Origin: Zelonia costaricensis
Lineage: Eukaryota; Euglenozoa; Kinetoplastea; Trypanosomatida; Trypanosomatidae
Length of the DNA stretch: 24,389 bases
Assembly (NCBI GenBank): GCA_030849075.1
Contig: JASAOO010003137.1
Span: forward strand, 1 to 24,389
Direction: 5' to 3'
In this document: piece by piece, positions 636-19,990 of the stretch
Layout of the letters: every line of letters begins with the position of its first letter
Numbering within the stretch: the stretch's first letter is position 1
Position numbers and translations under genes: made by a program
Notes under the pieces: model-generated
Told to the model about the DNA's origin: nothing
Seen by the model: the letters and a program-made list of their open reading frames with translations, nothing else
The model's database searches: none

Positions 636-2585
636 ATACACACACACACACACTCTTTGCAGAGGCGCGCGAAGGTCAACACCTGCACTGGTGGGGCGGG
701 GGAAAAGTGAGGAGGCAGCAAAAAAAGGTTGAGTCGTGCTCCAGCGAAGCGGGTGACAGAAGAGGGGCGCGGGGAGTTTGGGAAACACAGAACTCGAAAG
801 CAGCGGTCGCCTCAACACGAAAGTGTGCAGAAAGAGAGAGACACGACTCTGGCCAAGGACACACAACTTCGCACAGACAAGGAGACGCTCACGCGGTTGC
901 GCGTCAGCGCGCTTGCACAACGAGGGGGGGGAAGGAAGAGGTGCAGCGCTCCAGGGTGATGACGGGCAAAGGGGCCGGAGGTCTCCTGTTGCGGCAGGTT
1001 GGTCGCAGTTGCGAATTCGATGGAGAAGGGGGGAGGAAAGAGGGCAAAGGCAAGAGCAGCAGCCTCACGCTTGGTCAGCGCTTGAAGAAAAGAAAAAAAG
1101 CGGAGGCGACTCAATTACGGAGCTCTTCTGCTTGTTTGTGCTTTGTTTCTTGCTCCTCGTCCTTTGTGTTGGTGCTCGGATACTGCTGTGGAGTTTTCTT
1201 CTTCTCTTTTTTTCTTCGCGAGAATGGGAAAGGAAGGATATAAGGGAGGGGGCGCGTTGGTGCAGGGCGCTCGGGGAATATGTGTCGTACCGCGCCGGCG
1301 TGCGTTGCTGTTGTGCTGCGGGCGGACGAGGCCATGCATGGACGAGGTACAAGGGAGGAGGTACAGCGAGGAAGGTTGAAGAGGAGGTTGAAGAGGAGGG
1401 CGGGGAAATGGGGAGGGTGGCGGGGGTTGAAGCGCCGGTCGTGCACATGCGCACCGCCAGGCACCTCTTTCTCTTCGCCTTCGGCCTCGCGTAGTCCAAG
1501 CGGCACTGCGAGACGTCAGGACGCAAGGAATACGGAGCAGAGGCGCCACTGCGAGGCGCGACGGCCCTTCAGCGCGCCAGAGTGCACCGCTGCGGTGTTC
1601 GCGCGCTTTTGCCCTTCGCACTGGACCACACCTCTGTTCACGCAGCCGCGGTCACGCCGGCGGTCAAACTCCGCTTTCTTCTCTCTTTTTGTGTGTGTGT
1701 ATGTGTATTTGCTTAGCGTTGTCAGACACCCTTTTTTTTTCCTTTTTTAGCCTGGAGACAGAGAAACAAACACATACCTATATGTATACCTGGCTGGTAT
1801 GTCGATCACTGCGCCCGCTCCGCCACAAAAGACATCGAAGAGTAGCACACCCGCTTTCGCCGCCGAAATGAAAACGCAGGCAGAAAGCACAAAAAAATCG
1901 TATCGACAAGTGCAACGACAACGATGCCGCGCTTCGAAAACGGCGCTCTCCACGCATCCTCTTGCTTTGTGTGCTTCTTTTCGTTCTCGGCGTCAAGCTC
2001 TCTCCCTCTGCCTCGTCCATGCATAATCACAAGACGACCGAGCACAAAAACCTGACCGCAGACACACACGAGAGAAAGGGCGAGAAAGAGCAACACGATC
2101 ACGTGCACGTCACAGTGCCAAGAGGGGGTGGGGAGCGCGGAAAGCTGCCACAAGCTACTAAAAAAAAAAAAAAGGGACGAGGTGATGAAAGGGAAGCCAC
2201 GGCAAGAGGCATGGAAGAGGAGATGAGGTGACGAAAGAAAAAAGGAAAAAGATCGGGCAGTCGCAGGACGACACCGAGCTCAAGCGGCCACGAGAGAAAG
2301 CTCCATCAGCGCGTCTCCTACGTGCACGCGTGGGCTGGAGGGCATCAGCAGGGAGAAAAGAAGCGCAAAGCGGGCCTGTGTGCACTCTGAGCCACCCGCC
2401 GCGCAAACGCCTCCTTCGGGGAAGGCGGGGATACAGCGAGCGACACACAAAACAGGCGGCGCGGTTGCATAGAAGTGGGGGAATGAAGTAGGGCCGTTCC
2501 GTCCCCTCCCCAGCTTCCCTCCGTTTTCTTCTCGAGCTGAGCCAACGTGGGGCGAGGCGCGAAATAACTAAAAAAAAGGAGGGCT
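636..2585 (-). other. Intergenic spacer; probable 3' UTR of the TPR-kinase-HECT gene
   Basis: No gene is supported. The right-hand part is probably 3' UTR of the gene ending at 2586; the poly(A) site cannot be placed. Contents: a CA run (about 636-653), a 12-bp unit (GGTTGAAGAGGA) repeated twice at 1374-1397, plus-strand pyrimidine tracts at about 1180-1215 and 1670-1750, an A13 run at 2160-2173, and a GC-balanced island at about 1480-1670. Open frames on both strands are low in complexity and overlap one another. Confidence 0.6.
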
Positions 2586-5500
2586 CTAGACGACGTGGAA
2601 GCCATCCGCTGCGTGGGCAAGGGCGATCTCGAGCTTCTCCTTGATGACTTGCTTGTCGTCGTAGTCAGGCAGGTCGAGCTGGTTCGTGCACCCGTGGCCA
2701 ACCGGCAGACGCCTTTCATCGGCGCACCGCATCACCTTGATCTTCTTCATCGCCCCGCTTGCGGGCACGGTGGCTGTGGCGGTGCACAGCTGCAGAAAGC
2801 GGCGCAGGTTGTTCTGCGACATGTCCATCAACACCTCCTTGAGGAACTTGGGCGTGTTGGAGGTGCGGCTGAAGCCTTGGAAATCAAGCGCGTCAACAAT
2901 CACCTGCGCCGAGACGTGCAGCTGGCCGCACAGCAGCAGCAGCAGGTCCGATGGCGACAGCAGCTTTAGATGGTGCTCGATGGTAGGCTCGCAGAAGAAG
3001 CCGCGCTTCATGGCCTCGAGCGCGGTGCGGCGGCGCTCGACAAGGTCGAACTTGACGCGCAGGTCGATGTAGTCGCCCACGTTGTCGGGAGTCAGCGACG
3101 ACTCCATCGTGTAGCGGTCGGCAACCTGCGCCCGCAGGAACCCCGGCGTGAAGTGCGAGAAGTCAAGCCCGGCGCTCTCGAGGTCGGCGGCGGAGAGTAG
3201 CCGCAGCCGCTTGAGCGTGTTCGCGAGGGTCGCGTCGTACTCCTCGAGGTCGACGAAGGAGGGGTCCGCGCCACACAGGAACTTGAGCACCGCCGAGCTG
3301 AGCTGCAACGGCAGCTGCCGGTTCTCGATGATCGTCTTGAGCAGCACCTTGCCCAGCACGACGAAGAGGTCCGGTGCAATGCCGTCGGCGTCGGCGGCCG
3401 GCAGGTACGGCACGGTGGAAAAGAGCGCCGAGACGCTGCCGCCACTTGTGGGGGTTGCCGTGGCTGCGGCGGTGGCTGACCCGCCGGTCCCAGCCGTGGG
3501 GGCAGTGGGCGAGGCAGACCGCTCCCTCGGGGAGGTGGCGTCGGGGGAGCCGGTCACCGCCCGGGACGCTGCCCCGCCGTCCTCGGCGTCAGCGCACACC
3601 AGCGCCTTCTTGACCAGGATCATCTGGTCGAAGAAGAGGTTCAGCATCTCGGTCGTCAGGGCGCCCTCGTCGATGCCGGCCTCGCCCTGAAAGACCACCA
3701 TGATGGGTGAGAGAAGCTCCTCGCTGCCGAGGTGCTGGAAGATGTCGCGCACCGACTCCACCATGCGGTCGCGCGAGACGGACACGAGCACCTTCTGGTT
3801 GTGGATGCGGCGGACGGCGTGGATGTAGGAGCGCACCGCGTCGATGCGCTCGTCGCTCTTGGCCAGCGCGCTGCTGTTCTGGTTACTGGTGCGGGAGCTG
3901 ATGCTGGAGCTGAAGTACGGGTGCGCCAGCAGGTCGTAGGCGGTGGCGCGGTTCGACGGGTTCGCGACAAGCGTGGACGTGATGGCATCGGCCAGCTTCT
4001 CGTCCCCACCGACGGCCTTCACGGGCACCTCGATGCGCTGCTGCTCCGGTAGCAGCAGCGGCAGCGTCGGCTTGCCGAGCGACTGGTCGTGGAAGAAGGC
4101 GTTGTGCAGCGCCACCTCCAGCATCGTCACCCCCAATGCCCACATGTCCGACATGCCGGTCGACTTGGTCCGGTGCGAGCCGGGCTCACGCAGCAGCTGC
4201 TCCGGCGCCATGTACTGCAGCGTCCCCGCAACACCACCGCTGCCGCTTGTGCCGGTCGCCGTCAGCGTCGTCGTCAGCGTGGCATCGGCCACGCCGAGTG
4301 CGCCGTGGTCCTTGGCGATGCCGAAGTCGGCGATTACGGGTCGCCCGTCGTCGGCGATGAGGACGTTCGACGGCTTCAGGTCACCGTGGACGATGCCGCG
4401 CTCGTGCAGGTAGGCGACGCCGCTGGCGAGCTGGCGGAACAGGTCCTGCACGGCGACCCACGACATCGGCTCCTGCTTCGAGAGCTGCGCCCGCAGGCTG
4501 CCGCGGTGGTAGTACGGCAGCAGGATGTAGGCAAACGGGCCGTCGAAGAAGACGCCCTTGATGCGGATGATGTTGGGGTGTGTGCAGCCCGAGACGATGT
4601 TCACCTCGCTCTGGAAGCGCCGCCGCGCCGCCTCGTCGTCGATGGACACCTCTTTCACCGCGACGTGCTCGCCGCGCCGCGTGGCGTGGTACACCTTGCT
4701 GTTCACCGTCGACGACAGCGTCGAGACGATCTGAAAGTCGGAGAAGGACAGATTCTGCCACAGCCCGCTGCCCTTGACAAGGCGCAGGATACGGGAGCCG
4801 TTCGCCATCGACTTCCACGCGAGCTCGGGGTGGTCCTGGTTGACCAGCTCCATGATGCGCATCTGCACCGCCTTCTGCTTCTCGTGGATCGCGGCGATGC
4901 GCTGCTGCAGCTGCCTCACCTGCATCTTGAGGCACTCGATCCGGCTCTCCGGCTCGTCGCGCACCTTGTACCACTCGATCTCAGCCTGCACCTGGATGCG
5001 CTGTCGCTCCTGCAGCAGCCGCTGCTGCTCCAGCTTCGCCTCCTCGTCCAGCAGGTGGTCGCCCTCGCGCATCGTCCGCATAAAGGCGTCCTTGTCCGCC
5101 TTGACGCGGTCGACGAGGCTGCTGATCTGGTCCAGCGCCTGCAGTCGCGTATCCGACAGCTCCTTCGTCGTCGTCTGCGCCACCTGCCGCGCGTGCGCCT
5201 CTAACTGCGCGTCCAGCTCTGCAGCCTCGGATAGCAGCGGCTGCACCTCCGCCATGGCCGCCGCCTCGGCTCGCAGGGCGTGCAGGAAGGCCTGCGCCGC
5301 CACGTCTGTCGCAGCGAAGCACTTCTGCGCCTTGCGCACCGCCACGCTGATCTCGTCGCGGCGGCGCAGCAGTTGGCTGAGCTCAGCTTCGGCACTCCTC
5401 GCTGTCGGCGTCGATGGCGGCTGCGGCGGTGGTGACGGTGCGGCGGCCCCTTCCGCCGGCGTCGTCGGTGAGCTGGCGGGCAACGTCTCGACCGCGCTGA

Positions 5501-6911
5501 CGGGCTCTGCGGCTGAGACAGAGCCAACCTTGGGCGACGTCGTCGCACTCGCCGCGTCGGCCTGCGAGGAGGAGGTGCCTGGTGCGGCGCCGAAACGGCC
5601 AAAGAAGTGCTGCTCCTCCTTCGCAATGCTCTTGAGCTGCGCGATGGCGGCCTCCGCCTTGGCGGCGGTGTCCCACAGTTTGCTCAGCGTGAGGTCGCGC
5701 TCACGGCGTGCGTCGTGGTAGGCGTTGCTGTCTTGCTGCTGCACGGCTCGCCGCAGCTGCGCCTGCCGCTCCTCGACCTCCTTCGACAGCGCCGACAGCT
5801 CGCTCGACGTGGCGACGCCCAAGAGTGCCTTGATCTTGTCCGACCGCTTGCCGCACTCCACAATGACGTCCTGCGCCGCGTGTTGGTCCGCGTACTGCGC
5901 CGTCGCACCCCGCAGCGCCGACGCAGACTTGAGTTCCGTCTCCAGCTCTGTGAAGGGCAGCCCGCTCGTGGCGCCCCCGGTCGCCGGTGCCGCCTCTGAT
6001 GCGGCAGCGCCGGCGACCCTGACACCGCTCGCGTCGCCCGGTGCGGCCGGCCACGTCGAGGGCGCGCCAATCCCGCTGTCAGTGCGCGGGCTGCCGGAGG
6101 AGCTTTCCGGGCTCGTGATCAGCGGCGTGACCGGCGCCCTCGCCATCTTGGACTCGCACTTCGAGATGGCGACTCGAACGGCGTCCTTGTTCGCCTCCGG
6201 GGCGAGCGCCCACGCCTTGCGCAGGCTCTCCATCGCGCGGCCGAAGTCGCCCAGGCTCATCTGCGCCAGCCCGAGGCGGTAGTGCCCCTTGAAGAAGTTC
6301 GCGTTCAGCTCCACCGCCTTGGCCGCGTCGGCCGCCGACTTCTCGAACTCGCGCACGTTGAAGTAGGCGAAGGCGCGGTTGGTGTAGCTGAGCTCCGAGT
6401 CGGGGTCCACCTCGATGGCCTGCGTGTAGAAGCGGATGGCTTCTGCAAAGCGGCCGGCCTTGAAGGCCTGGTTGCCCTCTTCCCGCAGCCGCGTCGCGTC
6501 AAAGTTGGGGCTGCCCGTCGCGGAAAACTGCAGCGGGATGCGCTGCTGCTCCCGCTGAATCCACGCCATGGGCGGAATGCCGCCGTTGTAGACGCTGCCA
6601 GGCGACGCGGACTGCGCGCCAGCCATGCTGGGCGAGGCCGCCCCAGCGGTGCGCCGCGTCGGGTCCATCGTGACGCCGAAGCCGGGGCCGCCGCCGAAGA
6701 CGATGTTCGGCCCGAGCGCCTGCAGCATGGAGAGAGGGTTCATCTGCGAGTTGCCATCTGTTGTGAAGGTCACCATCGTCGGCCGCCCACCGCCGCCGTC
6801 GCCGCCGCCGCTACCGCCGCCGCCGCCGCTGCCGCCACCACCGCTCCCAGCATTGCCGTCGCCCTGCATGATGCTACGCAGGAACGACTCGAGTGGATTG
6901 CCAGAGCTCAT
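2586..6911 (-). CDS. TPR - coiled coil - protein kinase - HECT E3 ubiquitin ligase fusion protein
   Basis: The protein has 1441 residues, starting at the ATG at 6909-6911 and ending at TAG (2586-2588). Order: Gly-rich N-terminus (21-42); three TPR repeats (about 139-240) of the STI1/HOP type with clamp-like residues R143, N147, N178, K208, R212; coiled coils (about 320-435 and 505-700) split by a Ser/Pro/Ala linker; a protein kinase domain (about 725-1000); and a HECT domain (about 1035-1441). Kinase residues seen: K753 in VAVK, E769, HGD at 842-844, K846, N849, DFG 862-864, APE 902-904, D922, R988. The glycine loop is degenerate and the HRD Arg is Gly. The HECT N-lobe has the F-Q-G-E-x-G-I-D-E-G motif (1074-1083) and a 59-residue Ser/Thr/Pro/Ala insert (1107-1165). 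The C-lobe has C1408 in GHGCTNQLDLP, 33 residues before the end, as in known HECT ligases. Predicted activities are phosphotransfer and ubiquitin thioester transfer; substrates are unknown. Databases may list it simply as a protein kinase. Confidence 0.93.
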   Translation of the reverse strand: MSSGNPLESFLRSIMQGDGNAGSGGGGSGGGGGSGGGDGGGGRPTMVTFTTDGNSQMNPLSMLQALGPNIVFGGGPGFGVTMDPTRRTAGAASPSMAGAQSASPGSVYNGGIPPMAWIQREQQRIPLQFSATGSPNFDATRLREEGNQAFKAGRFAEAIRFYTQAIEVDPDSELSYTNRAFAYFNVREFEKSAADAAKAVELNANFFKGHYRLGLAQMSLGDFGRAMESLRKAWALAPEANKDAVRVAISKCESKMARAPVTPLITSPESSSGSPRTDSGIGAPSTWPAAPGDASGVRVAGAAASEAAPATGGATSGLPFTELETELKSASALRGATAQYADQHAAQDVIVECGKRSDKIKALLGVATSSELSALSKEVEERQAQLRRAVQQQDSNAYHDARRERDLTLSKLWDTAAKAEAAIAQLKSIAKEEQHFFGRFGAAPGTSSSQADAASATTSPKVGSVSAAEPVSAVETLPASSPTTPAEGAAAPSPPPQPPSTPTARSAEAELSQLLRRRDEISVAVRKAQKCFAATDVAAQAFLHALRAEAAAMAEVQPLLSEAAELDAQLEAHARQVAQTTTKELSDTRLQALDQISSLVDRVKADKDAFMRTMREGDHLLDEEAKLEQQRLLQERQRIQVQAEIEWYKVRDEPESRIECLKMQVRQLQQRIAAIHEKQKAVQMRIMELVNQDHPELAWKSMANGSRILRLVKGSGLWQNLSFSDFQIVSTLSSTVNSKVYHATRRGEHVAVKEVSIDDEAARRRFQSEVNIVSGCTHPNIIRIKGVFFDGPFAYILLPYYHRGSLRAQLSKQEPMSWVAVQDLFRQLASGVAYLHERGIVHGDLKPSNVLIADDGRPVIADFGIAKDHGALGVADATLTTTLTATGTSGSGGVAGTLQYMAPEQLLREPGSHRTKSTGMSDMWALGVTMLEVALHNAFFHDQSLGKPTLPLLLPEQQRIEVPVKAVGGDEKLADAITSTLVANPSNRATAYDLLAHPYFSSSISSRTSNQNSSALAKSDERIDAVRSYIHAVRRIHNQKVLVSVSRDRMVESVRDIFQHLGSEELLSPIMVVFQGEAGIDEGALTTEMLNLFFDQMILVKKALVCADAEDGGAASRAVTGSPDATSPRERSASPTAPTAGTGGSATAAATATPTSGGSVSALFSTVPYLPAADADGIAPDLFVVLGKVLLKTIIENRQLPLQLSSAVLKFLCGADPSFVDLEEYDATLANTLKRLRLLSAADLESAGLDFSHFTPGFLRAQVADRYTMESSLTPDNVGDYIDLRVKFDLVERRRTALEAMKRGFFCEPTIEHHLKLLSPSDLLLLLCGQLHVSAQVIVDALDFQGFSRTSNTPKFLKEVLMDMSQNNLRRFLQLCTATATVPASGAMKKIKVMRCADERRLPVGHGCTNQLDLPDYDDKQVIKEKLEIALAHAADGFHVV

Positions 6912-7118
6912 TTTTCTCGTTTGGCTTTCGGCTTGTGACAGTCACAATTGTCTTCGGGTTGTGTGTGTTTGTTTGTTTTTTCTTTTTTTTTTGGTCGTTT
7001 GTTTGAATTCTTGCCGGGGATGCGCAGCCTCTTGCCGAGGTGTATCTGTGACGCTGCGTGCAGGACGCGTGATGCTTGTCACCGTTGGGGTAAACGAGGA
7101 ACACTCGCTGCACTCCCG
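6912..7118 (-). other. 5' UTR of the TPR-kinase-HECT gene
   Basis: The predicted leader is 207 nt with no upstream ATG on the minus strand. It contains an A-rich run on the transcribed strand (plus-strand T-run at 6968-6992). The start-codon context on the minus strand is AAAAATGAGC, with A at -3. Confidence 0.5.
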
Positions 7119-7206
7119 CTGTTTAAGAATCGGCAAACAAGAACGAAAGGAGAACAAGGAAAAGAAGGGATGAGAAACGGAAAGAGGGCGGCGGCGGAGC
7201 ACACCT
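7119..7206 (-). promoter_or_regulatory. Predicted SL trans-splice acceptor of the TPR-kinase-HECT gene
   Basis: On the transcribed strand a strong CT tract (about 7195-7137) is followed by the first AG at plus-strand CT 7119-7120. The 84 bases from 7204 to 7121 contain no AG. Confidence 0.6.
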
Positions 7207-7684
7207 GCAGACACACACAAGCACGCACACAGACACACACACTCTCGCACACACGCAGACAAGGAGCACGAGACGGATTTGCAAGAAGAGCGCTCGCCAG
7301 TCAGACCTGGGCGCAAAAAGCGGGGGTTGGGGGGGCGGAGAAGCCGCAGAGAGGCGGGCGAGAAAACGGTCGCTCGGAAAACAGAAACCGTCTTCCGGCA
7401 CGACGGCGACAGGAAATGTCCTCCGCCGACACTCAAAAGAGAGAGAGAGAGAGACGCAACCAGGAGAGGTGGGGCGGCTCAAACAGAACACACGAGCAAC
7501 GAGAAGAAAAACACGATCAGCCGGAATGCAAAACGACTGACTCCGCTCTCTGCGCTCTTCGTCTTCGTTCTTGTTTTTTTTTTTGCCCCCTACACCAGTA
7601 CGCGTCTGCTCTCTCCGTCTCGTTGCGTCTATATAGTCTGATACAGCGGCTCAAGAAGAATCCTGTCAGAGTGTCCTTGTCTAG

Positions 7685-7688
<4 letters not shown>

Positions 7689-7719
<31 letters not shown>

Positions 7720-7747
7720 TTTGTTTGTTTGTTTGTTTGTTTGTTTT
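7689..7747 (+). repeat. Compound microsatellite (GT)n-(TTTG)n
   Basis: About 14 GT units run directly into about 8 units of the tetranucleotide TTTG. On the transcribed strand this reads CAAA and AC repeats. Confidence 0.95.
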
Positions 7748-8892
7748 TCTGCCCTTGTGCGCGCACGTGCGTCTGATTGCTGCCAGTCCAAAACTACTCG
7801 CAGAGAAGAAGAAAAAAAGAAAGGAGTGCTGGTCACAGGCTCGCCGTTGCAAGAGGGGCCGGACACCGTGACAGAGCTCCTTGCCAACACCAGCGCCAAT
7901 CGCGCCAACAAAGCCCCACAGGTTGCAGGGACGCACACACGCACAGGGTGAAGAAGGAAAAGCGAAACGAGAAGGAGAAGACAGGAGACAGGGAGTGATG
8001 CCCGAAACGCCCAAGTAAGACAACACGACCCTTGACGGCGTCGCAAGCAGAGAAAGCGGGTGAAACGGAAGCGGCCCTGAGGGGGGAGGGGAGGGGGGGG
8101 GCAGGACAGCACCACAGAAGGTGAGACGACCCGACGTGCTTTGGTCGAGCCCGTCGCGAGGCGGACTCCCCTGAGAAACCACCAGTGCGGCCGCCGAAAT
8201 CCGACGAAGAAAAACAAAACAGCACACGGGAGAAAAAGGGGGGAGGAACAACGACGTGACAGCGGTCGAAAGTGGTGCACGGAAGTCAACGGAGAAGGGA
8301 AGATGATACCGCCGCCTTCCACTTCCCGACAGAGGCGCTAGAGTGGGGAATGCTGGGGCTGTTGGGGGTGGTGATGATGCCTGCACAACAATGAGTTCGG
8401 TTGTGTTATCACACGCTCCACTGAGCGCCCACTAAGGCTCTGCTTCCGGACGCCACTGTGTGTGTCCTTTTTAGTCGTTGTCGTTTTTTTTTGGGGGGGA
8501 GGTTGGTGTGTGAGAGTGTGTGCGCGCGTGCGGGCGCGGGTACGTGGGAGCGTGTGTGAGTTTGGGTTCGCGCGCGCGTGCTGAGGAGACGCGGGTGGGG
8601 AAAGGGGCGTTGGCGTTGACACGGCGTGCCGCAACTTGAGCGGGTGTCGCAGTGCTTGGGGTGGTCCTTGAACACCACTTCAGGGGCTCCTCGGGCAAGG
8701 TGCACGTGATTTATGAGGACCGTCACGTTGCCTTGCGCAGAGGAGCGACGGAGAGCGGAGGGAGAAGGGGCTGCACGAGGAGGAATTTGAAGGGGCGGGT
8801 AAGGAGAGTGTGACTCCCAATAATGTGCACGCAACAGCAGTGCACTCTTACGCGTTTGCAGCGAGAATAAACCGTGCGCCAGCAGACACAAC

Positions 8893-8965
8893 GGCACACA
8901 CACGCACACACACACAGAGATACACTCCCTACTCACGCACACACGCACCCACACACACACACACT
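8893..8965 (+). repeat. Interrupted CA microsatellite
   Basis: Several CA runs are separated by short interruptions (CACACGCACACACACACAG, then a second run from about 8938). No coding role is visible. Confidence 0.9.
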
Positions 8966-10345
8966 CAGCAGAGGAGGGAGAGAGGGGAGGAGGAAGAGAC
9001 ACACCCAAAGGCAGAAAAACAAAAACAAAAAAAAAAGAAGGCGTGGAAAGAGCAGAGAGAGAGAGGGACGGAGGGGGGAGGGCGACGAGGTGCAAGGGCA
9101 AGAGGCGGTGTGCCTGCAGCGCTTTCACTCGAGGCACGTGGCGCGGGTGTAGTGGCACGTGTGCGTGCGTGTGCGCAAAGCAATAGAAGGCGGCGGTGTG
9201 GGATGGGGGAGGGTTCACAGGAGACCCGAACGTGGCGGCTCTCTTCCAGGTTGTATGACTACACTTCTTTTTTCTTCTTGTCGCTTACGGTGAGGAAAAA
9301 AGGGGGAAGGGAAAAACGAGAAACTAGGTGAGCGCTAGATTAACTGAACTGTGCTCTGGCGCAGGGAGAAGGGCGCGGAGGTGGTGCAGAACGCGCGAGT
9401 GGTGCGTGGGGTGTGTGGCGGTGTGAGGCACGCATAAAAAAGTGACGCAAAGTGTCAAGAGAAAGGGGAGGGCGAGAAGGAGAGAGAGCCAGAAGCAGTG
9501 AAAGAGGAGCAACCTTGGAAAAACAGAAAGCTGGCACTCTGTATATGCGTGCATTGCACTTGCGTGGTGCCGTCAGTGGTGCTGTGGTTGTGCACTCACG
9601 GACGACTCACTGACACGCCTCCTCAACGGCCCGCGGTGCGAGAGATCGACAGAGCCTTCCAACAAACGAGCAAGACTGTTGCAAGAGAGGGGAGGAGGCT
9701 TTGCTGGGTGCGAAGCGCGCTGTCGCGCGTGTACAGCCGCGCCCCCTTCTTTTCAGAACTTCTCTTGCTTGCGTGTGTGCGTGTGTCTTTGTGTCTTTTT
9801 CATTGAACTGCGTTTGCGGCAGATCAGCGAAGAAGCTCCCCAAACGCCAACAGAGTAGGCGCCCTGTACAGACAAGAAAGACGCGCGGCGGCAGGTGAGA
9901 CACAGAGCGCGACGGATAATGGAGAGTGGGGGGGGGCGCGGGAGCTTTGCTCGGAGGCAGCCGCTGCCCACCCACCCACCCCCCTGGTGAAGAAGAGAGA
10001 GGGAAGTGAAGAAAGCGGCGCCGACAATTTGCAGTTTTTCTTTTTTTTCTCAGACACCGACACGGAAGAGAGAGAGAGACGGCGTACCAAAAAGGCAAAG
10101 GAGCGGTAAGGCGAGGCACTGTCTTTGCGCCGGTGCGCACAGCACAGCAGAAGACCAGCTCGCAAACACAAAAGAAAGCCGCGATGGCGACACGCATGGG
10201 CGCGCACACAGCGTCCCACGCGCCACGCACACACACGCGAAGAGATGAGCCAGACTATGGCGCGAACGTGACTGCGTCGCTGCCACCTCGTCTCTTGCCC
10301 GTTGATGCGCCCGCGGTTCCCCGGTCAACTCGTTGCCTCGCCGCC

Positions 10346-11770: not shown

Positions 11771-12993
11771 TGTGTGGTGCCGTGCGCGGTGCCAGTGGCG
11801 GAGAGGAAGCGGGGAGGGAACAGACACACAAACACGAGAGGTCGGAGCGAGGAGAGAGGAGGGTATCCTAGGGGAAGAGAGGCGGCTAACAGCGGCAGCT
11901 GCGCGGCCTACAGGTACATGCTTGGAAATGCGCATCCCTAGTTTGCGGGGGCAGCAGGGTGGGGGGGCGGAGGTGAGGAGGAGGAGGGGGGCAGAGAAGA
12001 AGCCTGCGGGAAAGAGGCGGGGGAAAGGGCACATGGACTCGGTATCCCACTCCCCCCGCCACCCCCGCCACCCTCCTCTCTTGCCATAGAGGCACACACG
12101 TCAGCAGTTGTCGCCAGGAATGCTGGCACTCGGGAGCCGGCCGTCCCGAGAGGCTGCGGGGCTGTTCGACGCTGTGTTGTCGCTCATTCTTTTTGTTTTA
12201 ACCTTTTTTTGTTCCTCTCGCCATTCGTGGCCTTTGTGAACCAGACGCGACGATCGTGGAACACAAAAACAGCGAGTGAATTGATTACCGGCTATGTCGA
12301 CGACAGCATTCCTGAACAGAAAAAAGGAGGTGGGGAAGGGAAATACCGAAGAAGAAGAAAAAAAAGAGGTGGAAAAACGATGGCGAAGAAGGAGCTGGGC
12401 CATCTTTGAGAACACAAATGAAAACAAGAAACGAAGGGCGGTGCGTTCCTTGACCATGGGCACGTAAACGAAAGGCGGAAGGAACGGGGAGAAGAAGCTG
12501 CGACTACGCCAACGCGACGGGCGAAAAGGGAAAAAAAGTGACAAGGAGGACGAGCAAAGGAGTGTGAGCGAGTTGTGAGCATGCAGAGCGAAAAAGGAGA
12601 GACAAGACGTCGAGCAGAGAGGAGGGCGCGCGACGAGCTCGAGCGCATTCACTGCGCAACGAGCGTGCAAGATCGAGGAGACCGAGACGAAGAGGAAGAA
12701 CAGGCGCGAGACACCACAGAATCAGTCGCAATGGAATATGCAACCGAGAACAGCATATGCTCGCTGTCGAGGTGCAATGTCTGGGGGGCTTTCGATAACC
12801 TCTAGTGCCTTGCGTTGGACCAGGCGCGTCGCCTGCCTTCTGGTTTCGCTTTTCGCATCCTCTCAGGCAACCTAGCTCCCTGCAGCCCTCGCGGCCATCG
12901 CGCAAGCTCTCACTCTCTCACACTGCATCTCTCGCGCGACACTCTGCGCCCACTCTCGCCTGCCACGCTCGAAACTGAGCCTGTCCTTGCGCC

Positions 12994-13014
12994 GCACACA
13001 CACACACACACACA
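12994..13014 (+). repeat. CA microsatellite
   Basis: About ten consecutive CA units. Confidence 0.9.
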
Positions 13015-13154
13015 AGCATCAAGGCGCGTTGGCAGGTGATGGTCGGTTCCTCGTAACTCTTGGTCGCTGCGGCCGAAGCGACGAGCGACGAAAACGGCGA
13101 TGACGACTCGTATCCACGCACAGGTGTGCCGCCTCACGTACACGCGAGCAAACA

Positions 13155-13177
13155 CACACACACACACACACACACAG
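13155..13177 (+). repeat. CA microsatellite
   Basis: About eleven consecutive CA units, 140 bp from the preceding CA run. Confidence 0.9.
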
Positions 13178-15510
13178 ATTCGAAGATGGGGCTTGAATGA
13201 GTGCCCTGGGGTACATCACACCCGATGCTGTTCAAAACATGCGAGCGCGGCCTTTTTTTCTCACTCTCCCCGATCCAGGTGGCACGATGAAGAAAAAAGG
13301 AACAGAAAAAAAGAGGGAGAAAGCCTGAGCGACTCGGTCTCGCGAAGACGTACGCACCGGCAGCGAGAAACGTTTCATACAAAAGGGGAGAGGGGCGGTT
13401 TGAGGGAGTGAGGGAAGGGGGGGGAGTTGCACAGCCAGCCGATTGAGCACCCGTCGAGGAGGGGGGGAGTGACGGCAAGTTGCGGGTTGGCGTTGAGAGG
13501 AGGCGACGGGATGTGGATGCGCGAGGCGCCCCAGGCTGAGCAGAAGCAGGAGTGATAAGAAAAATCAAGATGAAGTGGCGAATGCGTGCTCTACTTGCCG
13601 CGTCTCCTGCCTCCACATCAGCAAACAAAGAGGGCACACAAGTGTGTAAGAGAAAGGCGACGGGAGCAAGAGAAGAAAAAGAGAATGACAGGACGAGCAT
13701 CCGCGCGGCGCCGAGGAGGAACAGAGATTGGCCACATGAGGATGTCCTCGGGGTGGGGGGAGAGGGGAGGACGCACGCCATAGGGCGCGGAAAAGAAAGG
13801 GCAGAACATGCGAGAAAAAAAAAAGGCGTCGGCGCAGGTAAGATGCACCCAAGTAGTAATCGACACGAAGTGAGAGCTCGACGTGAGGAAACGAAAAAAA
13901 CAAAGACCGAAACGCAAGAAAGGGCGCAAACGGCAGGAGCCGCGTTGGTGTTACGCTTCACTGTAGGGGGAAAGTGGTTTGTTGACGCGCTGCTTTCAAG
14001 TTCTTCGTTTCGGGCTCGTGCCCCATCGCGGGGGCAATGGTGCTCGCCGTGTGCGTGACGAGGTGAGCGACGGAGGGGGAAAAGCAGAAAAAAAAAAAAA
14101 GGACAGCGCTGCAATACTTTTTTTTTTTGAAGGGAACGATCCTCTTGGATCGAGGGGCCTGAAAGGGAGACAGGGGAAAGGGAGTGGTCGCGCAAGCCGC
14201 TGCGTGTACGCGGGCGCACGTGAGTGCAGCCCGGCTGGCAGCGCGGGTGTCAGCGATGCTGTCTGTGAAGGGCGACGGGCGAACACGCACAGATGGCGGA
14301 CGGGGGCCACCAAATGAAAGCCACGCCGATAGAGAGCACGCAAGATGACAGGTAGAACGGGCGAGGCTCAAATGCGGAGGGAGGCGGGAGGAAAAGGGCG
14401 CAGGGAGGAGAGAGCGCCAGTGGGGAGGGGGGGACAGCTGGAGGGCAGGGATGGAAGGAGGAGAAGGAATAGGGTCTACGATATGGGTAGAGGTGAATGC
14501 ACCGCGCACGGCGCCGTCCGCGCGCGTATACGTCTCACCCACACCAGCACAGGGTGTTCTCTTGAAGGCGGAGAGGTTGAGACTGACAAGGAAAAAAAAG
14601 GGAGCATGCGGCCCCCGGTGCGCGAGAGAAGGCAGAGACCAGAAAGGCCACGCAGAGAGCAACCAAGAAGATGAGAAACAAAGACGGGCGAAGAAGTCAC
14701 AAAATCGCAGAGAAGCCGGAGAGGGTAAAAGTGTGGGCCATGAAAAGGAGCTCTTTTCTGTGGGGGGGGGACGCTCGCGTGCCAAGCTCAGCTCCAGCAG
14801 GTCGCAAGACTACACACACGACAAAGCGGTCCGCTCCGTCCTGTGAGATTGGGGACAGTGCAGGCTGCACACACATACACACGTGCACACGCACTTGATC
14901 AAAACGCAAAAAAAAAAAAGAGAAGACTCGTGTGCGGTGTGTATCATGGCTCCATCGATCGGCCTCCATGTCCGTTGCTCGCGACGCATACGCCGCGACG
15001 ACGGCCTTCGTCTGTGCATGTGCGTGTGTGAGTGTTTTGTTTATGGCATGCCTGTGGGGGCAGACTCCGCACCTTCGCGGGTCCCTATTGCATCTTTGCT
15101 CGAGAGCCAGGGGCCTCGCGGCGGGCGGGCATGAGATATCAGAACAACAAAAACAAAAGCCGTCGCTGGGCCCGACACGCGGCAAGCATGCAGTTGCCGC
15201 CCCGTGCGGCGTGGCCAGGCGAGCACCAGAATGGAGTACACTGAAGTGGCCGAACACAAAGCGGTGGCAATGCTGGCGAAGAACCACGCAGTGGCAAGGA
15301 GAGGCTGTGCAGCTGGGGGTGGACTCGTCAGCGGCCAGGCACACGTGCCTTTGACCGAGCAGACATGCACGCACACACGCGCGCGTGCCGAGGGGGGCCG
15401 CATCAGGAAGCTCTACTTACACTAGACCACGCCCCGTCAGGCGAGGGAAAAGAGTGAAATGAGGTCGACGGCACCATGGCAAAACACGCATCGGGCCGGC
15501 AGGCCGCCGC

Positions 15511-15540
15511 GACTATATATAGACGTTTATATATAGACTG
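15511..15540. repeat. Short direct repeat TATATATAGAC, spacer 3 bp
   Basis: The 11-bp unit occurs at 15514-15524 and again at 15528-15538. The first copy with its flank (GACTATATATAGAC) is nearly self-complementary. It is an AT-rich island inside purine-rich spacer DNA. Confidence 0.85.
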
Positions 15541-16696
15541 GAAACAAATGGAGGAGGGACGAGGAAGGCAGCTACCATGGAGGAGGAGGAGATGGGGAAA
15601 AGGGGCGGCAGTAACGTGCAAAGCAACTAGCAAACAGAAAGAGAGACAAGGCGGGAAGACAACGAGGGGAACAAAAGAAAAGGGAGAGGGGGAAGGGGCG
15701 GGGGGCAATTCGAAAAGGTCGTGGAGCTGAAAGCTACCAGGACGCGCAAATCGTGATGATCGTTTCCTTTTTTTTTTCTTGTAGAGTGTCTTCGCGGTGA
15801 TACTGGGGCTTTCGTGGCAGAGACGGATGCGGAAGAGATGAGTCAAGGAAAGCCCAGCATTGCCACGTCGATATTTGCGCAAATTGGGAGATGCCACGCG
15901 CACCTAAACAGTGGAAAGAAAAACAAAACAGAGGAGCCACACGCGCAAGAAAAAAAATGCTCACAAATCAATGAATCTGACGCCACACAACAGGTACCTC
16001 GACGGCGCACAGGGAAGAGAAGTAAAGGTGGTTGGGTTGAGGTGGACTGGGCACTTGTGTGTGTGTGTGAGTGCGGAATTGAGAAACAGCAACGCTCGCA
16101 CACGCACACACACAGACAGACACGTACGCAGTGATAGCACACCCGTCCACACAAGCTGAACATGATTCGACGCACGAGCTGCGTCCGTGAAAGGTCAATG
16201 TGGACTCGAGCAAAAGAGGTGAACACAGCAAGACGAGATGGGGAAAAGCCCCTAAAGAAGGACAACCAAGACAAGTAGATGCGCACACACACGGTGGAAA
16301 GAGGCGCAAAGCGAAAAACACGAGCACGATAGGGCAAGAGAGACCACACACACACACACACACAAAAGCACGCGCACGAAAGCATGACGGCACACACGTG
16401 CAAAGAAACAACAACCGAAACACGCACGCGTCTAAGCAGAGGCACGACAACACCAGAGCGAGGGATACAGACGGACGCAAGTGCACAACAGTGTCCGAGA
16501 AGAGGGGGGAGGTTGGCTGCATCACGGAGACACGCAAGAGGAAATGGGGGATGGAGGAAAGCACAAAGCGAACAAAAACAAGAAAACGCGCAACACAAAA
16601 GGAGGGAGAGAAAGAAAGAGAGAGAGAGTCCCGGAGGGGGGGAAAGAAGGAGGAAGGGCCAGTGACGCAGTTCGGGAACGCCGCGAAGGTCGACAT

Positions 16697-16987
16697 GCGC
16701 AGAGAGGCCAGCTACCGAAGGGGGATAGAAGACCCACGGCATGTGCAGAGTGAGCCAGCCACAACTATGTAGAGTGGAATAAGGAAGCGTGAGGTTTGAG
16801 GTCAGATCACGCGCTGGGGTGGAGCCGTGTGCGGCGTGCAGCTTCTCCGTTGAGGTGTAAAAGCGACGAGGTGGGGGACTGCCGAGGGGTGGGGGGAGAA
16901 GAAAGGAGGGGGCAAAGGAGACCTGGTGCCGTCGCGTTGTTATCGAAAGGCACACACACAGACACGCACACACCACGCAAAGAAAGA
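16697..16987. repeat. Tandem duplication, copy 1 (291 bp)
   Basis: This block starts GCGCAGAGAGGCCAG and ends in ACCACGCAAAGAAAGA. It is nearly identical to the block starting at 16989. By eye I count three substitutions and one 10-bp length difference. It lies in the 4E-IP1 downstream spacer. Confidence 0.95.
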
Positions 16988-16988
16988 N
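16988..16988. other. Ambiguous base N at the junction of the two duplicated blocks
   Basis: This is the only undetermined base in the window, and it sits exactly between the two copies. It may mark an assembly join rather than a simple sequencing ambiguity. Confidence 0.95.
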
Positions 16989-17289
16989 GCGCAGAGAGGC
17001 CAGCCACCGAAGGGGGATAGAAGACCCACGGCATGTGCAGAGTGAGCCAGCCACAACTATGTAGAGTGGAATAAGGAAGCGTGAGGTTTGAGGTCAGACC
17101 ACGCGCTGGAGTGGAGCCGTGTGCGGCGTGCAGCTTCTCCGTTGAGGTGTAAAAGCGACGAGGTGGGGGGACATTGGGGACGAGGGAGGGGTGGGGGGAG
17201 AAGAAAGGAGGGGGCAAAGGAGACCTGGTGCCGTCGCGTTGTTATCGAAAGGCACACACACAGACACGCACACACCACGCAAAGAAAGA
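16989..17289. repeat. Tandem duplication, copy 2 (301 bp)
   Basis: This copy follows the single N at 16988. It differs from copy 1 by CC for CT near the start, two changes around the GACCACGCGCTGG segment, and an extra 10 bp in the G-rich part (about 17165-17192). It runs on into AAAG units after the end of homology. Confidence 0.95.
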
Positions 17290-17587: not shown

Positions 17588-19990
17588 TCAGCGGCGCTGC
17601 TGCTGCTGCTGCTGCTGTTGTTGTTGGAAGAGGAACTGGGCGTTGGTGCCAAAGGGGTTGAACTGCGGCTGCGGGGCCGGCGGGGCCTGTTGCATGGGCG
17701 GCTGGGCCATAGGCGGGGCTTGCATGAAAACGGTTCCATCCGGGCGGCGGTACATGACCGGCTGACCGGGCATGTAGAGGCGCTGCAGCTGGGCCGGGTC
17801 GACGAAGAACTGCCCAGGCGCGTTCATGCGCATCGGCACCTGCGTCGGGCTCGGCAGCATCGGCCCCGGCTGCGGCATCTTGGCGGCGACCGCCTGCTGC
17901 GGCGGGGTGTTGTGCATCGGGCTGATCGTGCCGTTAGGCTGCGGCTGCGACTGAGGCGGAAGCGGAACGGCAGTCGGGCCCTGCGGCGGACGCTGCATCG
18001 CCATCCACGGCGGAAGCTGCTGCTGCTGCTGCTGGGGCTGGGGCTGAGGCTGCGGTGGAAGCGGTGCGGCGGCCTGCAGCTGCTGGGGCTGAGGCTGCGG
18101 CGGCTGGGGCCCGAGGAGCTGCGACCACTGCGGCGGCATCGGCGGCTGCGGCTGGGGAAGCATCCCCTGCTGCGGCATCGACTGCGACGGCGAGGGTGGC
18201 ATCTGAGGCGGTGACGGGGGCATCTGCAGCATCTGCGCCGGCGCCGGTGGGCCCTGGGGGGAGGGCTGCGGCTGCTTTGGCGGCTGGTTGAACCACGCGG
18301 GCTGCTGCGGCGGCTGCTGCGGCGGTGTGTTGACCTGCGACGGCGTCTTCACCTGCGGCGGTGACAAAGGCACAGCAGGGGCCGACCCCTCTCCACCCTG
18401 GCGGGCCCGCTGCTTGAGCATGTTCTCCAGCTCCGCGGCGGCGATGGGGGTCGCCTTCGTCGCCGCCATCGGAGGCGCCGGACCCGTGGAGACGACGGCG
18501 GCGCCCTTCTTCAGCAGCTGCTCGAGGTCTGCGGCGGTCCACGCGCGCGAGGTGATCGCCTCCGGCCCGGCCTTGGCCGGCGCAGCGGCGGGGCGCTGTG
18601 GGGCGGCGGCAGCGGCGGGACCCGTCTTGAGGCCCATCGCGGCGGCCACGTTTGTGCCGAGGCTGCCGTTTACGGCGCCGTGCGCAGCGGCGTTTTGTGG
18701 GGCGGGGGCGGCGACCGGCGGGGCGGCGCCAGGGCCCTTGCCCGGCGGGGCCTGGGGCTGCGACGCCTTGGGCTGCGCCGGCGGCGACGTCGTCGTCGGG
18801 GTGGACTGCGGCTGCAGAGACTGCTTGAGGGCGCTTGCCATCGATGGGGCAGTGCTCCAGAGGTTGGGATCGTTCTTCGTGGAGGACCACGGCCCGGCCG
18901 CGTAGCCAGGCGTGCCGCTGTTCGCGGGGGTGGCGAAGAGGCTGGGCTGCGAGGCCGACGTTGGGGCGGGCGAGGCGGTGTTCGACGTGGCCGTGGACGG
19001 GGCAAAGGAGTGCAGGCCCGCCGTGAAAGCCGGCGCCGGTGGCGCCATCGCCGCCGCAGTGGAGGCCGCCTTGGCACCGGCGCTGGCCGACGTGGCCGAA
19101 TGCGGCGGCTCGGCGCTGGGCGGCGCCATCGGGCCCTGCGCGGAGAAGAAGCGGGACCGCACAACGGTGCGGGGCGACTCCTCGACCATCGAGATGCCCG
19201 CGAGCAGCCGCTCAATCTCGTCGGTTTCCTTCTTCTCCGCCTCGGCGGCCTCGAGGTTGGCGCTGCTGCCCTCCTGCTTGAACTTCTCCAGCGCCTGCTT
19301 GAGGTGCTCGCCCTTGCGCTCCTCCCTCTCCATCGTCTCGGCCACACGCTTCTTGTGCAGCGCCGCCTGCCGCAGCTCGTACTCGATGCCCTCTTCGAAT
19401 GTCTCCTGGTTGCGGTTGCCGCGACCGAAGCGGCCCTCTGGCGGAGCGAAGCGATCGTAGCCGGGCTGTTGCTGCTGGTGCTGGTGCTGCTGCTGGTGCT
19501 GCTGCTGACGGCGCCCATTCTCCTCGCGGCCGCCGCCGTTGTTGTTGCTGCTGTGGTTGTGGCTGTTGCTATTGTTGTTGTTGCCACCACCACGGCGGTT
19601 GTCCCCACCGCGACCACCCGCGCTGTAGGCGGGCGTGGCGTTCGAGGTGCCCGCGTGGCCGGCGCTGCCGCCGCCGTTCGCATTGTTGTTGTTGTTGCCG
19701 CCGTGGCCGCCCCTGCCTCCCGCGCCGTGGGGAAGAGGAGCCGCCGGAGGCGCCATGGTGCTCGTGCTGATGTTGTCTGTGAAAACACTGGCCGGGGCGT
19801 GGCCTGCGTTGCCGTTGGTGGTTGGCTTGGCGGCCGGCTCGGGCTCGCGGCGGCGCGGGGCCGGGGTGGGCTCGGCCACCTCAATCACGTCAAACTTCTT
19901 CACATCCACGAAGCCGAGATCCATCGCGCTGGCCAGCTCCAGGATGCGCAGCATCTCCTCCCGGGTGTACGTCGTGCGCTGAGGCGGCAT
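17588..19990 (-). CDS. 4E-IP1: eIF4E-interacting protein (Leishmania 4E-IP1-like)
   Basis: The protein has 800 residues, from the ATG at 19988-19990 to TGA at 17588-17590. Near the N-terminus, Y8-T-R-E-E-M13-L14 matches the YxxxxL-phi eIF4E-binding motif except for Met in place of the usual Leu. This motif, a length matching the roughly 83-kDa Leishmania 4E-IP1, and the PKA neighbourhood are the basis of the name. Established work describes 4E-IP1 as a binder of the cap-binding protein LeishIF4E-1. Most of the chain is low-complexity: Gly/Asn-rich with RGG-like steps (89-154), poly-Gln/His (161-176), a charged helical stretch (195-265), then Pro/Ala/Gln-rich to the end, with a terminal Q-run (789-798) and RR. 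Ordered-looking islands are 258-285, two related helices at 484-497 and 514-530, and 722-760. It probably acts in the cytoplasm as a translation regulator and may enter mRNP condensates; the latter is inference. Confidence 0.75.
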   Translation of the reverse strand: MPPQRTTYTREEMLRILELASAMDLGFVDVKKFDVIEVAEPTPAPRRREPEPAAKPTTNGNAGHAPASVFTDNISTSTMAPPAAPLPHGAGGRGGHGGNNNNNANGGGSAGHAGTSNATPAYSAGGRGGDNRRGGGNNNNSNSHNHSSNNNGGGREENGRRQQQHQQQHQHQQQQPGYDRFAPPEGRFGRGNRNQETFEEGIEYELRQAALHKKRVAETMEREERKGEHLKQALEKFKQEGSSANLEAAEAEKKETDEIERLLAGISMVEESPRTVVRSRFFSAQGPMAPPSAEPPHSATSASAGAKAASTAAAMAPPAPAFTAGLHSFAPSTATSNTASPAPTSASQPSLFATPANSGTPGYAAGPWSSTKNDPNLWSTAPSMASALKQSLQPQSTPTTTSPPAQPKASQPQAPPGKGPGAAPPVAAPAPQNAAAHGAVNGSLGTNVAAAMGLKTGPAAAAAPQRPAAAPAKAGPEAITSRAWTAADLEQLLKKGAAVVSTGPAPPMAATKATPIAAAELENMLKQRARQGGEGSAPAVPLSPPQVKTPSQVNTPPQQPPQQPAWFNQPPKQPQPSPQGPPAPAQMLQMPPSPPQMPPSPSQSMPQQGMLPQPQPPMPPQWSQLLGPQPPQPQPQQLQAAAPLPPQPQPQPQQQQQQLPPWMAMQRPPQGPTAVPLPPQSQPQPNGTISPMHNTPPQQAVAAKMPQPGPMLPSPTQVPMRMNAPGQFFVDPAQLQRLYMPGQPVMYRRPDGTVFMQAPPMAQPPMQQAPPAPQPQFNPFGTNAQFLFQQQQQQQQQQRR
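17591..17624 (+). repeat. CTG/TTG trinucleotide run encoding the C-terminal poly-Gln
   Basis: On the plus strand about seven CTG units followed by TTG units encode Gln 789-798 of the 4E-IP1-like protein. Such a run could vary in length between strains. Confidence 0.85.

Follow-up and report, generated by a model that had tools for sequence, protein, structure and literature searches.

A single gene on the minus strand of the window (the whole stretch of 24,389 nucleotides analyzed here) encodes in one chain a TPR domain, a protein kinase domain and a HECT domain. The fusion itself is real, and its architecture has been in print since 2005. The original prediction had hinted that the kinase-HECT join was unrecorded, and this was not borne out, since LmjF35.4000 of Leishmania major was already described with TPR, kinase and HECT in that year (PMC1266030). 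What we add to the 2005 record is a full five-position clamp in the TPR, a nucleotide loop free of glycine, and HGD in the catalytic loop of the kinase. The reading that we favor, at a probability of roughly 0.55, is that the protein is a chaperone-docked, CHIP-like E3 that would use HECT chemistry and carry a built-in kinase regulator.

Results

One reading frame spans the TPR, kinase and HECT domains

The coding frame (Table 1) starts with the codon at 6911-6909 and stops at 2588-2586. It is open for 1,451 codons from stop to stop, the upstream in-frame stop lying 10 codons before the ATG, and its GC3 is 0.89 overall. Cut into 24 blocks of 60 codons, it has a GC3 of 0.77-1.00 in every block, and the signature carries on unbroken across the linkers. 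The single uninterrupted frame of 1441 codons that had been predicted therefore stands, on the minus strand and with a coding signature throughout, and the Pfam profile check gave HECT, Pkinase and TPR_1 matches that each exceeded the curated cut-off.

Table 1. Positions in the window of the TPR-kinase-HECT gene and its features, with the evidence for each.
Feature	Position	Strand	Evidence or remark
TPR-kinase-HECT coding frame	2586..6911	minus	1,441 aa + stop, about 154 kDa predicted
Likely trans-splice acceptor region	7119..7191	minus	53-nt pyrimidine-rich tract 7139-7191, next AG 7120-7119
TPR domain, STI1/HOP-type, residues ~142-240	6192..6488	minus	Pfam TPR_1 8.2e-15, three stretches
Presumptive carboxylate-clamp residues R143, N147, N178, K208, R212	6276..6485	minus	Alignment with HOP TPR1
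Coiled-coil-like heptad region, residues 655-694	4830..4949	minus	Crude heptad score 0.480
Protein kinase domain, residues ~722-1002	3906..4748	minus	Pfam Pkinase 1.9e-42, residues 737-1000
HECT N-lobe start, residues ~1043-1105, weak match	3597..3785	minus	E6AP 1c4z alignment, outside the Pfam hit
Low-complexity Ser/Thr/Pro/Ala-rich stretch in HECT N-lobe, residues 1106-1178	3378..3596	minus	Several SP/TP motifs
HECT body and C-lobe, residues 1179-1440	2592..3377	minus	Pfam 5.5e-52, profile 36-305 of 306
Putative catalytic Cys C1408 in LPVGHGCTNQLDLPDY	2688..2690	minus	Aligned with the E6AP Cys in LPTSHTCFNVLLLPEY
F1438, Phe at position -4 from the C-terminus	2598..2600	minus	Read from the sequence

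Because trypanosomatid genes are closely packed in polycistrons, one explanation for so composite a frame is that two genes were joined by an assembly error, or that trans-splicing yields two mRNAs from it. We consider this extremely improbable. The longest pure pyrimidine run within the coding sequence is 10 nt, and a scan of the window found no pyrimidine-rich tract of ≥18 nt on the minus strand from 2253 to 7138, whereas the flanks of the gene hold many such tracts on the same strand. In agreement with the single polypeptide originally predicted, the scan of the coding sequence thus gave no tract that would serve a trans-splice site between the kinase and HECT regions. GC3 stays high through the linkers, the window's sole N, at 16988, lies outside the TPR-kinase-HECT stretch, and an independent L. 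major gene, LmjF35.4000, holds the same three domains in the passages of the paper that describe it (PMC1266030). Taken together, the lack of internal tracts, the GC3 profile and the L. major gene lead us to reject two genes or trans-spliced halves. Judging from the way trypanosomatid genes are expressed, the AG at 7120-7119 is the likely spliced-leader acceptor and would place about 207 nt of 5′ UTR ahead of the start codon.

Elsewhere in the window, on the minus strand, a frame at 10349-11416 matches the mitochondrial carrier family in three stretches (Pfam Mito_carr, 6.5e-60), and a frame of 800 aa at 17591-19990, which has no match in Pfam, shows a strong coding signature (GC3 0.87); the latter includes tandem-repeat rows with units of 45 and 39 nt at 18008-18103 and 18128-18203. 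No frame passes the coding-signature filter in the long stretches 7200-10300 and 12100-17100, where pyrimidine tracts and simple repeats abound; these are intergenic or UTR space, large for a trypanosomatid.

The TPR module has a presumptive carboxylate clamp

The claim of an STI1-type TPR domain was borne out by the three TPR_1 stretches. The HOP TPR1 pattern is followed at all five clamp positions, Arg standing in for the first Lys; Tom70 has Arg at the first clamp position. The five residues in Table 1 are what we take to be the carboxylate clamp of Hsp70/Hsp90 co-chaperones. PDB relatives of the TPR include HOP, PP5, CHIP, SGT and RPAP3 among the best 60 of 164 matches, and designed TPRs and OGT, which to our knowledge are not Hsp-tail binders, likewise rank high among the same 60. 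When the TPR was used as query against its own genome, it gave 20 further matches, spread over 13 open frames. The full [KR]NN[KR]R clamp was present in nine of these 13 and missing from those on contigs C348, C727, C702 and C755; in the C727 frame the first position is unaligned and the other four are present. This control is biased toward clamp proteins because the query itself carries a clamp.

The PDB chain 8ye5_A is identical to the TPR at 107 of 127 residues (84%; window 6120-6515) and has the same five clamp residues. The predicted structure of the TPR alone reached pLDDT 61.5 and pTM 0.48. With this model Foldseek ranked 8ye5 first, at a TM of about 0.35 and an rmsd of 11.8, so the match between the TPR and 8ye5 rests on sequence, and VIA-align returned mixed TPR-like helical arrangements. 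By its title, PDB entry 8ye5 concerns the reductive dehalogenase TmrC studied with a cell-free expression system, yet the chain is a TPR domain; possibly a protein from the host that supplied the extract was crystallized, or deposited, under the wrong name.

The complete clamp, which the original prediction had not noted, points to a chaperone-docking ligase, and we judge from the residues kept that the TPR probably binds a chaperone tail.

A divergent kinase domain retains its catalytic residues

The kinase domain scored 146 bits with the Pkinase profile, against a cut-off of 31.7. Under their textbook names, its motif residues are K753, E769, H842-G843-D844, N849, D862-F863-G864 and the MAPE at 901-904. 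Identity at K753, E769, D844, K846, N849, D862-F-G and D922 extends to all six aligned paralogues from the same genome; MAPE is found in five of the six and MSPE in the other one. D862 was confirmed as the DFG Asp, and the catalytic-loop Asp is D844. In contrast, the nucleotide loop LSSTVNSKVY (732-741) has no glycine, whereas glycines are present there in six of six aligned paralogues, and the catalytic loop reads HGD where HRD is expected. The earlier description of a kinase with most catalytic residues thus holds for the Lys, Glu, Asp, Asn, DFG and APE elements but not for the glycine loop or the HRD.

Both departures recur in PDB chain 9gmp_A, a 'Map kinase kinase-like protein' that has the same LSSTVNSKVY loop and HGD and is identical at 241 of 280 aligned residues (86%). 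That chain is an isolated kinase domain, whereas the kinase here is part of a TPR-kinase-HECT chain. If the two PDB chains come from another species, the identities in the kinase (241/280) and the TPR (107/127) suggest constraint on both domains. An alignment-free structure prediction for residues 714-1441 gave pLDDT 36.2 and pTM 0.24, and the model was set aside.

Within its own genome the nearest kinase among the matches listed is 37% identical over 189 query residues, which is in line with the 'unique' class of Parsons et al. (PMC1266030). A kinase is held to be inactive, in the part of that paper that treats the question, when the Lys or either Asp is mutated; with the Lys and both Asp intact, the present kinase counts as active by the same criterion (PMC1266030). 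From its conserved residues we consider the kinase probably active, with less certainty than the original prediction implied.

Coiled coil and HECT domain

Two coiled-coil regions had been proposed. One region, at residues 655-694, outscored all of 100 shuffled proteins, whose best score was 0.429; the next best region, at 507-534, fell below the threshold.

The HECT match amounts to 177.7 bits in Pfam (cut-off 23.9), with the first 35 profile positions uncovered, and to 182.1 bits in the genome-wide profile search. Upstream of it, E6AP (1c4z) aligned with residues ~1045-1097 at 9.1 bits and an i-Evalue of 7, and the gap between the two E6AP-aligned pieces measures 85 residues here versus 29 in E6AP. 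The HECT domain had been called complete, with a canonical C-lobe; the body and C-lobe are as described, but the first 35 profile positions are only weakly matched and a low-complexity insert lies inside the domain.

C1408, proposed as the HECT cysteine, does align with the Cys of E6AP. The same column is Cys in nine of the 12 other HECT rows of the genome; one row (L014) has Val, and two rows from one frame (L019 and L021) have a gap, possibly an effect of trimming or alignment. The -4 Phe has a role in other HECT ligases. E6AP (2.4e-20) and HUWE1 (7.4e-19) are the nearest solved HECT domains. These matches support membership among the HECT E3s, and the domain is likely to have ubiquitin-ligase activity.

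Rarity of the fusion and published relatives

The genome gave at least 128 kinase matches at E ≤ 0.001 and at least 15 HECT matches, this frame being counted in both, and among the matches listed only this frame holds both domains. Three HECT contigs (C753, C669 and C688) have kinase matches too, yet at other places and in other frames.

As described in the passages of Parsons et al. that concern it, LmjF35.4000 is 'a Leishmania-specific gene' that combines a HECT domain with three TPR motifs and an ePK domain classed as unique; the same passages count a single kinase with HECT in L. major, record no such kinase for T. brucei or T. cruzi, and state that the combination was otherwise unseen in the genomes sampled there (PMC1266030). 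The legend of their Figure 8 calls the ePK domains shown predicted active, and the passages do not make the place of LmjF35.4000 among them explicit (PMC1266030). The present gene has the same set of three TPR stretches, kinase and HECT, and by this domain set it is very probably the orthologue of LmjF35.4000.

By its gene number, we infer that LmxM.34.4000 is the counterpart of LmjF35.4000 in L. mexicana. The main text of Baker et al. 2021, including its table of required kinases, does not mention LmxM.34.4000; that table does include LmxM.34.4010 (PKAC1) and LmxM.34.4050 (KKT3). The same text refers to 17 kinases unique to Leishmaniinae and names a mutant phenotype for LmxM.25.1560 alone, which, if the TPR-kinase-HECT gene is among the 17, speaks against a strong role in the life cycle as far as that text goes. 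Passages of Burge et al. 2020 report 14 HECT genes, 12 of them with a catalytic Cys, find none of the tested HECT genes essential in promastigotes, and defer the account of the hect12 mutant to a separate publication (PMC7647121). As a guess, L. mexicana HECT12 may be the TPR-kinase-HECT gene, given that its mutant could stem from the kinome project.

The terms HECT, ubiquitin and TPR had no match in Jones 2014, and passages of Parsons 2005, Baker 2021, Burge 2020 and Damianou 2020 contain no functional account of the gene. Among 28 NCBIfam families the best 25 were all under their cut-offs, Rfam gave no hits at gathering thresholds, and in viral contigs two stretches matched a pattern, neither of which encodes a relative.

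Chaperones in the assembly

The genome has a single Hsp90 match, with the C-terminus EADL. No chaperone ending in EEVD was found among the frames printed, the two longest per locus, for one Hsp90 and eight Hsp70-family loci (L024-L032); the closest C-terminus among the Hsp70-family frames was AEDVD. Spliced-leader exon patterns had no match in the assembly either, and the two results together suggest that repeat arrays may be missing from the draft of 755 contigs, so that the tandem arrays of cytosolic chaperones may be absent from it. The missing spliced-leader match also runs counter to a simple trypanosomatid test, but a kinetoplastid origin is supported by the paraflagellar rod family, which was matched three times here and not at all in 14 control genomes.

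Discussion

In our favored reading, the three-repeat TPR clamp would dock a partner, probably cytosolic Hsp70 or Hsp90 by way of its acidic C-terminal tail, and the central coiled coil may allow self-association. The divergent kinase most likely binds ATP and would act either on its own ligase or on the docked client, the SP/TP-rich HECT insert being a candidate phosphorylation site, while the C-terminal HECT domain would pass ubiquitin to the client via C1408.

The docking step competes with the possibility, which we hold to be real though not the likelier course, that the TPR binds some other acidic peptide, or else a substrate dedicated to it, instead of Hsp70/Hsp90 tails, leaving a ligase with no link to chaperones. 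The missing EEVD end among the printed chaperone frames of the assembly speaks for such a ligase and against the chaperone-docked E3, as do the lean of the clamp control toward query-like proteins and the high rank of TPRs from outside the co-chaperones, such as designed TPRs and OGT, among the best 60 of 164 PDB matches. Set against these are the five of five clamp positions kept both here and in 8ye5_A. The kinase part of the favored E3 is weakened by the loop, which lacks the glycine that all six aligned paralogues have, and one may ask whether the domain is a pseudokinase that acts only as a scaffold or regulator, in which case the protein would be a TPR-targeted HECT ligase. We think this unlikely: the glycine-free loop, common to 9gmp_A, and the replacement of HRD by HGD argue for it, but the domain retains its Lys, Glu, catalytic Asp, Asn, DFG and APE, and neither the Lys nor either Asp, whose loss marks inactivity in the relevant part of Parsons et al., is missing. 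Their Figure 8 points the same way to the extent that its predicted-active ePK domains include LmjF35.4000, which the passages leave inexplicit (PMC1266030).

Whether the kinase and ligase of the favored E3 work on each other is a further matter. Functional coupling of the two is doubtful, being argued by analogy, with no sign of it in the sequence. That they share a chain for co-localization only, each with its own targets, is likewise a minority view in our assessment; the same fusion in L. major, as the description of LmjF35.4000 has it (PMC1266030), and a kinase-HECT linker of just about 40 residues count against it. Still less probable, in our estimation, is a lineage-restricted triage enzyme that docks on Hsp70/Hsp90 and in which phosphorylation by the kinase, be it of the client or of the enzyme's own HECT insert, would switch on ubiquitin transfer. 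If such an enzyme exists, it would link degradation to both chaperone state and phosphorylation with no need for a separate degron-reading ligase. If the modules are coupled at all, the protein would be a natural kinase-ligase in cis on the chaperone system, so far from one parasite lineage, and a compact system in which to ask whether one enzyme marks and ubiquitinates a client. Should the modules prove uncoupled, a HECT ligase fitted with a CHIP-like TPR would still provide a testable rule for how these parasites pick their targets for degradation.

CHIP/STUB1 resembles the present protein in having an N-terminal TPR clamp and a C-terminal E3 (TPR match, E about 3e-16); its E3 is a U-box, not a HECT domain, and it is not known to have a kinase. 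E6AP has the same catalytic Cys motif, and we know of no kinase or TPR in either E6AP/UBE3A or HUWE1. A kinase and a ubiquitin ligase do occur in one chain in MEKK1 (PHD/RING-like plus kinase) and in the plant U-box kinases, whose ligases are RING-like or U-box and have no catalytic Cys, and whose kinases belong to other families.
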